Of a stretch of 64,000 nt of DNA, positions 3,343 through 28,183 are shown piece after piece. The number at the start of each line of letters is the position of its first letter. Position 1 is the first letter of the stretch. Under the pieces are notes generated by a model. The model was not told the origin of the DNA. It worked only from the letters and a program-made list of their open reading frames with translations, and made no database searches. Source of the DNA: an uncultured Maribacter sp. (lineage in GTDB: Bacteria; Bacteroidota; Bacteroidia; Flavobacteriales; Flavobacteriaceae); NCBI GenBank assembly GCA_947504045.1, contig CANNFY010000002.1, positions 310,001 through 374,000 of the forward strand, in the 5' to 3' direction. Made by a program: the position numbers and the translations under genes.

Positions 3343-4008
3343 CTACCAATCTATTTTTTTAATTTTTTTTTCTATTAAATATTTATTACACGTACTAAAA
3401 TGTTTATTTCCAAACCAATACCCTCTATTAGCACTTAAAGGTGATGGATGCCCAGAAAACAATATAAAATGTTTTTCTTTAGCTATTAATTTTTGTTTTT
3501 TCTTAGCATAACCTCCCCAAAGCATAAAAACAAGATTTTCTTGTTTTGCAGATAATTCTTTAATAACGGCATCTGTAAAGGTCTCCCATCCTTTTTTTTG
3601 ATGACTGCCTGGCTTACCTTCTTGAACGGTAAGCGTTGCATTTAACAATAAAACTCCTTGTTTTGCCCAACGCTCTAAATTTCCACTTTCTGGATACGGC
3701 ACATTTAAATCTGAAACTATCTCTTTAAAAATATTTTTTAAAGAAGGTGGGTGTAAAACACCCTCTTTTACTGAAAAACAAAGTCCGTTAGCTTGACCAT
3801 AACCATGATAAGGGTCTTGCCCTATAATAACAACTTTTAAATCATTTAAATTACAATAATTAAATGCTGCGCCAATATTTTCTTTCTCTGGGTAACAAGT
3901 ATTTTCTTCATACTCCCTTAAAACAAAATTGTTTAAATCTTTAAAATATTCTTTCTTTTGTTCTTTTTCAATTAAAGCACTCCAAGAAGTATTATAAATT
4001 TCTATCAT
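3343..4008 (-). CDS. ung: Uracil-DNA glycosylase
   Basis: A 221-residue family-1 UDG that removes uracil from DNA as the first step of base-excision repair. The catalytic water-activating motif GQDPYHG is at about residues 61-67, the uracil pocket (LCFSV) follows, LLLNATLTV is in the middle, and the DNA-intercalation loop HPSPLSANRG is at about 186-195. Length is normal for the family. It is transcribed alone on the minus strand and diverges from mutS2. No copy of the palindrome found at the repressor locus at 27.1 kb is visible upstream. Confidence 0.96.
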   Translation of the reverse strand: MIEIYNTSWSALIEKEQKKEYFKDLNNFVLREYEENTCYPEKENIGAAFNYCNLNDLKVVIIGQDPYHGYGQANGLCFSVKEGVLHPPSLKNIFKEIVSDLNVPYPESGNLERWAKQGVLLLNATLTVQEGKPGSHQKKGWETFTDAVIKELSAKQENLVFMLWGGYAKKKQKLIAKEKHFILFSGHPSPLSANRGYWFGNKHFSTCNKYLIEKKIKKIDW

Positions 4009-26359: not shown

Positions 26360-27121
26360 CTACTTGTTAGTTTTATTTATTTGATTCTTTAATTCCTCCA
26401 TAGATTCTTGGAGTTGTTTTAGTAATCCTTTTTCTGTTGTTGCATCAATACCAAAAGTAATTTTACTATTTACTTCCCATATTTCTTGTATCTGGTGTGG
26501 CTCTATATCATAAGGAGGATAAGATTCATTTAAAGAGACCAAAGTAACATTGGTAGAATTTGGTTTACTAATTACTTTTTTTACTAAAACAGCATCTTGT
26601 AGTACAACTACATAAATTTTATTAGCACTTACATCTCTTAAATCTTCAGTTGCTTTTGCTAGTACCCACTCTCCTGGTTTTAAATTAGGAAGCATACTAT
26701 CCCCTTCTACTTGGAAACCTCTGTATGTTGCATTTCTAAACTCTGGTAGTGGCAAATCAAAAGCAGGTAATTCTTTATACCAACTTGTATCTTCAATATT
26801 TTGAGGATATCCAGCCGCGGCTTTTGCATTTACTAAAACCATATTATCTCTATCAGAAGAATCTACCGTAACAACTTTAGGAATAACACTTGTAGAAGAG
26901 GTTTCTATATATTGCTGAGAACTCTCTCCAAATAACCAAAGCGGATTAATCTTATACTTTTTTAAAAGTTCTACGACTACTTTACCAGATAATTTGGTTC
27001 TACCTCTTTCTATATCTGCCGTTGTGCTAGAAACTCCTATTTGTTTTGCAAATTCAGATTGTGTAAAACCCAACTCTCTTCTTAAATCTGTGAATCGTTT
27101 TAAAATAGCATCATTTTCCAT
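26360..27121 (-). CDS. LexA/S24-type self-cleaving transcriptional repressor
   Basis: A 253-residue repressor from ATG 27121. A Cro/C1-type helix-turn-helix is at residues ~10-55 (ELGFTQSEFAKQIGVSSTTADIERG). The C-terminal half is a LexA/UmuD S24 peptidase: putative scissile Ala103-Gly104 (KAAAGY), nucleophile Ser142 (EGDSMLPNL) and general base Lys181 (VLVKKVI), 39 residues apart as in this class. Such repressors cleave themselves when stimulated by RecA filaments and release a damage regulon. The frame also opens at TTG 27127. A TTG-N18-TATATTTG promoter ends three bases before the ATG, so the transcript may be leaderless. The divergent intergenic palindromes suggest autoregulation. Confidence 0.88.
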   Translation of the reverse strand: MENDAILKRFTDLRRELGFTQSEFAKQIGVSSTTADIERGRTKLSGKVVVELLKKYKINPLWLFGESSQQYIETSSTSVIPKVVTVDSSDRDNMVLVNAKAAAGYPQNIEDTSWYKELPAFDLPLPEFRNATYRGFQVEGDSMLPNLKPGEWVLAKATEDLRDVSANKIYVVVLQDAVLVKKVISKPNSTNVTLVSLNESYPPYDIEPHQIQEIWEVNSKITFGIDATTEKGLLKQLQESMEELKNQINKTNK

Positions 27122-27124
27122 ATT

Positions 27125-27153
27125 CAAATATACATAATTTGGAGTATATCCAA
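27125..27153 (-). promoter_or_regulatory. Predicted promoter of the S24 repressor (leaderless)
   Basis: On the minus strand TTG (27151-27153), 18 bases, then TATATTTG (27125-27132): a full match to the TTG-N17-23-TAnnTTTG consensus. The -7 box ends three bases before ATG 27121, so transcription would begin at or next to the start codon. The TTG lies within the operator at 27138-27154. Confidence 0.55.
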
Positions 27154-27162: not shown

Positions 27163-27175
27163 TGGAAAATTTCCA
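27163..27175. promoter_or_regulatory. Operator 2 (TGGA-N5-TCCA)
   Basis: TGGAAAATTTCCA, same half-site and same five-base spacing as operator 1; centre 23 bp from its centre. Confidence 0.55.
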
Positions 27176-27180
27176 TAATT

Positions 27181-27193
27181 AGGAATTATTCCA
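27181..27193. promoter_or_regulatory. Operator 3 (AGGA-N5-TCCA)
   Basis: AGGAATTATTCCA, the weakest copy (one mismatch in the TGGA arm), 18 bp from operator 2 and immediately abutting the plus-strand -7 box at 27194. Confidence 0.45.
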
Positions 27194-27224: not shown

Positions 27225-27419
27225 ATGGTTTTTAACGAAATACATTCCAAATTACAAGCTATTGCTACTATTAGCGAGGAAGATTCATTTATTAGAGTAA
27301 TTCCTAGAAAAAATATAAACACTTCATTTTTTGGAAATATTCCAAAAAACAAAACATTACAGACAAACATGAAAGTAATTAAAAGCGCAAATGCGATACA
27401 ACTTTCCTTATTTAATTAA
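27225..27419 (+). CDS. Small protein with C-terminal sliding-clamp-binding motif
   Basis: A 64-residue ORF from ATG 27225 (the frame also opens at TTG 27204, too close to the predicted transcript start). The sequence is mixed, without membrane segment. The last six residues are QLSLFN: QLSLF (59-63) is the consensus bacterial beta-clamp-binding pentapeptide QL[SD]LF, at a free C-terminus where such motifs usually function. It starts the operon divergent from the S24 repressor, and the DUF4130 gene begins two bases after its stop. An ATG at residue 49 could also give a 16-residue peptide retaining the motif. Could be a remnant of a longer clamp-binding repair gene. Function inferred only. Confidence 0.6.
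   Translation: MVFNEIHSKLQAIATISEEDSFIRVIPRKNINTSFFGNIPKNKTLQTNMKVIKSANAIQLSLFN
27327..27349. promoter_or_regulatory. Operator 4, inside the small gene
   Basis: A 23-bp palindrome with perfect ten-base arms: TTTTTTGGAA, three bases, then TTCCAAAAAA. It contains TTGGA-N5-TCCAA, the same form as operators 1-3, and is the best match of the four. It lies about 100 bases downstream of the start codon. Confidence 0.5.
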
Positions 27420-27421
27420 TT

Positions 27422-28183
27422 ATGGAAGAAACTAAGACATTAATTTATGACGGTAGCTTTAATGGTTTTTTAACTGCTGTATTTGTAGGTTTTGAAGAAA
27501 AAAGAAAAACTTTAAATATCAGCAAAAGAACATCTTGTAATAACAACTTATTCACAAAAACTAAAATAATATTTACAGACATGAATAAAGCTGAACGTGT
27601 TTGGAAAACAATTCAAAATAAAAATAGCACTGCTCTAAAAAATATTTATTTTACTTTTTTAAGCGAAAAGAAAAACATAGAAAATGTATTGTATCTATAT
27701 ATCAAAAGTTTATTTAACCCTTACCAAGCAGCACAAATAGGCTTTTCAATTACAGAACAAATTAACATTGAGGATGTTTCTTTAACTGTTGCAAAAGAAA
27801 AAAGATATTTAGAAAAAACTATAAAATTTAAAGAATCTAATGATGGTGTTTTTTACACAAATATTGCTCCTGACTTTGATGTTATACCTTTATTATCAAA
27901 ACATTTTAGAATTAGATTTAATAAAAAACCATGGTTAATTTATGATGTAAATAGAAATTACGGTATTTATTATGACACTCGCAGTATTGAAATAATTGTG
28001 CTTGATACAAATCAAATATTTAAAGCCTCACAAAGTAAACTGAGGAACAATAGTGCAAAAATTAAAATATTAAACAAACACTTTAATAAAAATAACATAA
28101 TAACAATGGTAATCAATAAACTAAAACAAAATAATTTTCCATTGAATAACAGTAAATTAAACTTAAATAGAATTGCAAATTAA
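27422..28183 (+). CDS. TIGR03915/DUF4130 family putative DNA repair protein
   Basis: A 253-residue protein. The opening TLIYDGSFNGFLTAVFVGFEE, the middle ERVWKTIQNK and LYLYIKSLF, and the C-terminal KRYLEKTIKFKESNDGVFYTNIAPDFDVIPLLSKHFRIRFNKKPWLIYDVNRNYGIYYD are diagnostic. Family members are found beside a radical-SAM protein (TIGR03916) or fused to a uracil-DNA-glycosylase-like domain, and are presumed to act on damaged or modified DNA; the reaction is unknown. Here neither partner is adjacent. The gene follows the clamp-motif ORF by two bases, in an operon probably under the S24 repressor. It converges on the Tudor-like gene, ending one base away. Confidence 0.85.
   Translation: MEETKTLIYDGSFNGFLTAVFVGFEEKRKTLNISKRTSCNNNLFTKTKIIFTDMNKAERVWKTIQNKNSTALKNIYFTFLSEKKNIENVLYLYIKSLFNPYQAAQIGFSITEQINIEDVSLTVAKEKRYLEKTIKFKESNDGVFYTNIAPDFDVIPLLSKHFRIRFNKKPWLIYDVNRNYGIYYDTRSIEIIVLDTNQIFKASQSKLRNNSAKIKILNKHFNKNNIITMVINKLKQNNFPLNNSKLNLNRIAN

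Follow-up and report, generated by a model that had tools for sequence, protein, structure and literature searches.

Positions 27225–27419 of the plus strand of the window, by which we mean the whole analysed stretch of 64,000 nucleotides, encode a small protein (MVFNEIHSKLQAIATISEEDSFIRVIPRKNINTSFFGNIPKNKTLQTNMKVIKSANAIQLSLFN; 64 residues plus stop codon, no cysteine) with the putative sliding-clamp-binding motif QLSLF at residues 59–63 (codons 27399–27413, plus strand), followed by N64 as the last residue. A sequence-only reading of this DNA had described such a protein and the translation confirms it. The gene is located between a divergent HTH/peptidase S24 gene and a TIGR03915/DUF4130 gene, whose ATG starts 2 bases past the small-gene stop codon, and domain profiles agree with the repressor and the DUF4130 gene that had been named in the same reading. 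We see an even chance that the small protein is induced by the SOS response and acts as a subunit tethering the DUF4130 protein from its operon to the clamp, replacing the tag that the radical-SAM protein TIGR03916 carries itself.

Using genome searches we found the small gene at the same site in six of eight genus genomes (G000, G002 and G004–G007), the named carriers being Maribacter vaceletii and further Maribacter isolates, while G001 and G003 have no small gene and their S24 and DUF4130 genes are about 105 bases apart. The ATG at 27225 is kept in all six copies, among which 29 of the 64 positions are invariant. Pairwise dN/dS lies between 0.15 and 0.47 in 14 of the 15 genus pairs and the 15th pair shows zero amino-acid changes; judged by this pattern of substitution, the small ORF is a real gene under purifying selection in the genus. 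All five residues of QLSLF are constant across the six copies and four of the five codons vary, exclusively synonymously, which points to selection on the protein and so, indirectly, to translation.

According to the available text of two reports the clamp-binding consensus is QL[S/D]LF or more broadly QxxLF, and it is often found at the C-terminus (PMC12309361, PMC4549789). Among the 124 ORFs of at least 50 aa in the six frames of the window only the ORF described here has QL[SD]LF at most three residues from its C-terminus, with about 0.001 such cases expected by chance from the composition. In the best 80 of 314 relatives, a set that is not a census, we counted 2133 distinct ORFs of at least 50 aa; 71 of them have Q[LMF]xLF at most three residues from the end, and these are 64 radical-SAM proteins, six small homologues and one frame over a radical-SAM deletion scar. 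An alignment of 19 members of the small family shows Q[L/F]xLF at most three residues from the C-terminus in every one, and this motif is the best-conserved part of the protein: M1, A14, Q59, L62 and F63 do not vary and L60 is present in at least 90% of the rows, even though the identity to the window protein is only 21–29% outside the genus. Thus all 19 members possess the sequence feature of clamp-binding-motif proteins (QL[S/D]LF or QxxLF at an accessible place) and are predicted to bind DnaN. None of the 19 had a match among the NCBIfam, Pfam and PHROGs profiles or the PDB sequences.

To see how the gene is distributed we used a profile of 19 homologues and detected it in 19 genomes, from 13 genus codes, out of the 299 of the family (E up to 1e-3); as the alignment was made from homologues already in hand, most of these matches are there by construction, and the new finds are G168 and G319. 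Profile searches located TIGR03916 in 89 and TIGR03915 in 119 of the 299 genomes. All 89 are within the 119 (lists compared by eye), leaving 30 genomes with DUF4130 only, G149 being among them by a C-terminal DUF4130 fragment only. The small gene is present in 17 of these 30 genomes, in two of the 89 with the radical-SAM gene and in none of the 180 without DUF4130 (E up to 1e-3), where most of the 17 radical-SAM-less carriers are rows used to build the profile. Fisher p values are about 1e-10 (17/30 versus 2/89) and about 1e-8 (19/119 versus 0/180), with genomes treated as independent despite their common ancestry. Six weak matches (E 0.01–0.1), one of them overlapping a radical-SAM gene end, were taken as chance. 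The four matches in 296 order genomes and the three in 396 class genomes are all inside this family.

The same picture is obtained from the individual loci. Outside the genus 28 loci lack the radical-SAM gene (27 genomes and the second copy of G252), 14 of them with the small ORF, 13 without it and one (L096, from the above-mentioned G149) dropped as unusable, since it has a DUF4130 fragment only and no BLAST match. The 14 ORFs encode 53–75 aa, lie between S24 and DUF4130 and end with Q[LF]xLF, and their stop is in all 14 cases at most seven bases from the DUF4130 start, with an ATG overlap in L073. L074 and L083 were counted as being without the small gene, as a relaxed pattern hit unrelated frames there, whereas L099 does have the gene; L149 (no S24 on the contig) and L118, L128, L133, L151 and L156 (repeat contigs) were left out, and the radical-SAM, S24 and DUF4130 sets contain near-identical pairs from two collections. 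Orthologues between S24 and DUF4130 genes therefore do keep the terminal motif, namely all 19 aligned members and two further proteins with QLNLF, and the loss of the motif that would have spoken against the sequence-only reading was not seen among them. As S24 and DUF4130 are kept without the small gene in 13 of the 28 non-genus loci and in two of the eight genus genomes, the proposed tether is dispensable.

The radical-SAM protein TIGR03916, which we take to be COG4277, was searched for by profile in the eight genus genomes and was found in none of them. Elsewhere it carries the same tag, since Q[LM]xLF is present near its C-terminus in 65 of 65 loci (among the best 80 of 314 relatives) and in 30 of 30 of a second, partly overlapping set. 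In total the terminal motif is found in 93 of 93 distinct sequences, all of them taken from a single bacterial family or from MAGs assigned close to it, at 0–8 residues and usually one residue from the end. The likeness extends to the other end of the protein. Residues 1–23 of the small protein (27225–27293, plus strand) form an N-terminal module whose pattern, I..KL...A..G..D, falls in register with the beginning of TIGR03916, and the first 22 residues of the radical-SAM protein (M.FERIKEKLNILADAAKYD) can be matched without gaps, from residue 1 onwards, to those of the small family (EI..KL...A..G..D). Comparing the profiles gave the in-register placement as the best of all offsets on the 420-column radical-SAM profile, and its score was reached by 0 of 5000 column shuffles in register and by 3 of 5000 over all offsets, while the control profiles (S24, DUF4130) scored below zero. 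With single sequences 15 of the 19 members scored above shuffled versions of themselves (p < 0.05), the exceptions being L076, L084, L087 and L090, and hhalign of the two families gave a probability of 13% and an E value of 0.002. The N-terminal likeness, as judged from these alignments, is thus significant for the family, weak pair by pair and altogether not strong. In addition, the small protein is not a member of TIGR03916, as it has 64 aa and no cysteine versus a radical-SAM core of about 415 positions with cysteines. The AlphaFold model of the radical-SAM protein was poor (mean pLDDT 38, 7 sequences) and was not used, and no sequence relative of it was found in the PDB. In L119, L163 and L111 gaps of about 400–960 bases are located between the radical-SAM gene and DUF4130.

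The gene following the small ORF (27422–28183, plus strand) encodes a TIGR03915/DUF4130 protein without its TIGR03916 partner. It scores 138.5 bits versus the curated TIGR03915 cut-off of 112.25 (positions 1–200 of 243) and 74.6 versus 27 for Pfam DUF4130. A C-terminal signature, [KRS]RYW[KR]Y[LM], is present in the DUF4130 proteins of 72 of 72 radical-SAM loci, two of two loci with both genes and one of one with the deletion scar, and it is absent from 20 of 20 small-gene loci and from 19 of 19 loci with neither gene; the DUF4130 protein of the window has lost it. The comparison covered L031–L032, L069–L095, L097–L176 and L200–L201; some of its rows are near-identical, and the pattern was written after the sequences were seen. 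Among the 19 loci with neither gene one-residue departures occur, KRSWKYL (L164) and KRHWKYL (L176), as after a recent loss. The RYWKYL signature may serve as a contact with the radical-SAM protein or contribute to an active site shared by both proteins. Since the rest of the protein is conserved, with YDG invariant in 17 aligned DUF4130 proteins and dN/dS below 0.5 in all comparisons of four genus copies, DUF4130 is still in use without its radical-SAM partner. Its AlphaFold model (mean pLDDT 82.5) had as best Foldseek matches the PAP phosphatase 8a8k (E 4e-4) and RecJ 5f56 (E 5e-3), both with low TM-scores of 0.35–0.40. We take both to be DHH-type phosphoesterases, and the modelled fold may resemble this class, which is a hint and not an assignment; a comparison with PDB sequences gave no convincing match (one at E 0.27). 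DUF4130 is called a predicted mutagenesis-related enzyme in the available text of one report (PMC3765255), and no demonstrated activity was found in the literature searched.

On the other side of the small gene the divergent HTH and peptidase S24 repressor is encoded at 26360–27121 on the minus strand, with an alternative TTG start being possible at 27127. Three GGA-N5-TCC boxes, which we regard as LexA-type operators, are located in the promoter between them (GGAGTATATCC at 27141–27151, GGAAAATTTCC at 27164–27174 and GGAATTATTCC at 27182–27192). Three such boxes are present in the divergent promoter of all eight genus genomes, and the pattern formed by the tandem of operators 2 and 3 is matched nowhere else in the 3.46-Mb assembly. 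A fourth box (GGAAATATTCC, 27333–27343) lies inside the small gene within the FGNIPKN codons and is found as GGA-N5-TCC in all six genus genomes having the gene. Synonymous variation at codons of invariant residues was seen in 1 of 6 cases in block 35–42, which contains this box, versus 10 of 15 in codons 1–30, in small numbers and in an AT-rich genome that favours these codons; from the few synonymous changes over the box, the conservation of FG[N/D]IPKN is probably at least partly at the DNA level. The box might be a roadblock or feedback site. In the small genes of other genera no such AT-rich internal box was seen, and L070 holds two GC-rich matches.

The divergent repressor agrees with the published GGA-N5-TCC group of non-canonical LexA by its HTH and peptidase S24 domains and by the sites that its promoter contains, and for this reason the small gene and DUF4130 are probably an SOS operon that would be induced by DNA damage in this species. 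The repressor-controlled operon with a DNA-repair-family gene of the sequence-only reading is thereby borne out as far as LexA-type operators are present and DUF4130 is of a family associated with repair. We take COG1573–COG4277 to be the DUF4130/radical-SAM pair and the PA0069-family radical-SAM protein to be of the same family as SplB. In the available text of the relevant report GGA-N5-TCC is the site of a Flavobacteriaceae group of non-canonical LexA, as demonstrated by gel shifts using the protein of S. agarivorans; damage-induced derepression of this LexA group is reported in other species (PMC8565304). The non-canonical LexA regulon of Bacteroidetes described there thus resembles the locus in its S24 repressor, its GGA-N5-TCC operators and its COG1573–COG4277 repair operon, and the radical-SAM protein SplB is named as a further member (PMC8565304). 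In the genome of the window a single box, TGGATTTATTCCA, is found about 8 bases upstream of a PA0069-family radical-SAM gene (L202, around 1501; 473 bits versus a cut-off of 360). As a genome-wide scan with TGGAWWWWWTCCA gave 6 sites versus 14 for the reversed control, showing no enrichment of the single-box pattern, we do not speak of a regulon on the strength of single boxes; with a looser operator pattern there were 6 matches in the forward and 5 in the reverse direction, compared with 5 and 5 for the control.

From these observations we propose the following model. Upon DNA damage the non-canonical LexA would come off the GGA-N5-TCC boxes, and the two frames, which almost touch, would be expressed together as the small protein and DUF4130. 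The contact with DUF4130 would be made by the N-terminal module, which is probably helical, the basic linker could be flexible or touch DNA, and the free C-terminal QLSLF would dock in the DnaN pocket. DUF4130 would in this way be brought to the clamp without the radical-SAM partner, which elsewhere bears the same terminal motif. As two genomes pair the small gene with a complete, motif-bearing radical-SAM gene, it cannot be only a substitute. We put forward tentatively a wider version of the model, which we would not expect to hold in full: a stand-alone SOS-induced clamp tether, having both ends of TIGR03916 and no enzyme core, might switch DUF4130 between radical-SAM-dependent and radical-SAM-free clamp-bound repair complexes, with feedback in the genus by the LexA operator inside its own coding sequence.

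The sequence-only reading had suggested either a clamp adaptor or a replication brake during damage. We favour its adaptor half, given that the radical-SAM protein usually partnering DUF4130 shares the terminal motif and is lacking from 17 of the 19 small-gene genomes; its brake half gained no support and is still conceivable. As a brake, the SOS-made free clamp peptide would fill the DnaN pocket and slow the polymerases like SocB of Caulobacter, DUF4130 being merely co-transcribed. Such a function would suit a consensus clamp peptide that is free at the terminus of so small a protein and encoded next to LexA-type operators, and suppressors of SocB and RipA map to the same hydrophobic clamp pocket in the available text of the report (PMC12795458). 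However, a brake need not be linked to DUF4130, which is present in all 19 small-gene family genomes (E up to 1e-3), and the homologues at the inspected loci sit in the S24–DUF4130 operon, whose radical-SAM protein has the same motif, while a mere blocking peptide does not need a conserved N-terminal module; altogether we think that a brake is unlikely. An adaptor that delivers another protein to the clamp or to degradation, with DUF4130 being mechanistically unrelated, could equally be built from a short N-terminal module, a variable linker and a clamp peptide, but no sign of a second partner was seen and the linkage favours DUF4130, making this explanation improbable to us. We would be similarly surprised to find a co-repressor of the adjacent S24 repressor like DdrR of Acinetobacter. 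The divergent layout is the same and the intragenic operator ties the small gene to the repressor, yet conservation within the protein is highest in the clamp motif, and S24 is kept in all 13 non-genus loci and both genus genomes without the small gene, at least three GGA-N5-TCC boxes being present in 12 of the 13 non-genus intergenic stretches (none in L085).

The least probable explanation in our opinion is a decaying relic of the radical-SAM gene, left by an internal deletion that spared both ends. Both ends of the small protein do resemble those of TIGR03916, and a true deletion of this gene is seen in L129 (around 3440–3500), where it was removed in place and only its last codons (QQLSLFN) are left, directly after the S24 promoter and before an intact DUF4130 gene. 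This scar, however, is without ATG and without the N-terminal module, and a loss of function does not agree with the purifying selection in the genus and the occurrence in 13 genera. Moreover, G168 and G319 (one genus code) have S24, the small gene (ending QLNLFD and QLNLFE), a complete radical-SAM gene (ending QLSLFN) and DUF4130 in tandem, so that the small gene forms its own cistron in these genomes and is not just a deletion relic. An internally deleted radical-SAM gene is thus ruled out as the whole story and is possible as the origin. Strict mutual exclusion of the two genes was rejected as well: a motif scan found both in none of 65 radical-SAM loci (among the best 80 of 314 relatives), yet the profile search gave these two genomes elsewhere.

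Among known systems the TIGR03916 protein is most similar to the small protein, sharing the operon slot, the terminal Q[LM]xLF and the first about 22 residues in register, but it is a protein of about 420 residues with a radical-SAM core whereas the small protein has no counterpart to what lies between the two ends, and both coexist in two genomes. The clamp-targeting toxins SocB and RipA are aimed at the clamp pocket, as published for them and predicted here; as far as their description in the available text goes, they differ in being toxin–antitoxin systems, while the small gene adjoins LexA-type operators and is linked to DUF4130 (PMC12795458). DdrR is encoded divergently from UmuDAb in Acinetobacter and helps it to bind its operator, and a small protein divergent from an S24-type repressor is the only feature common to both; no clamp motif is mentioned for DdrR in the available text, whereas the motif is the conserved core of the protein here (PMC11332147). 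PolC and transposases have a C-terminal QLxLF clamp peptide as well, but the available text describes them as large enzymes bearing their own tag, unlike the separate small protein found here (PMC12309361, PMC4549789). The terms ‘clamp’, ‘small protein’, ‘DUF4130’ and ‘hypothetical’ are absent from the main text, as available, of the report on the non-canonical LexA regulon (PMC8565304). Among the matches listed in our literature search, by titles and the beginnings of abstracts and mainly in open-access papers, no description of such a small clamp protein was found, and in the same kind of literature the terminal clamp motif of the radical-SAM member was not found in print. Clamp-motif proteins as such are known; apparently new, as far as the literature was searched, is a LexA-linked tether that stands alone and is paired with DUF4130.

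If the model is correct, a repair protein would be recruited to the replication clamp via a separable subunit, and clamp tethering would be central to the so far uncharacterised SOS repair by DUF4130 and TIGR03916. In some marine flavobacteria the small protein seems to take over the tag of the missing repair enzyme, and, having 64 residues as well as a peptide contact and a partner that are both predicted, it is directly testable. Its possible origin is the two ends of a duplicated radical-SAM gene. In a tree of the S24 repressors, which left out L053, L075, L081, L085, L093, L095 and every second radical-SAM row, the small-gene state requires five changes, four of them forced by well-supported branches, which argues for repeated gene loss, gain or exchange; a larger quick tree gave six and three. 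Genome G252 (L046, L081) has two TIGR03915 genes, a full-length one beside the radical-SAM gene and a divergent one beside S24.
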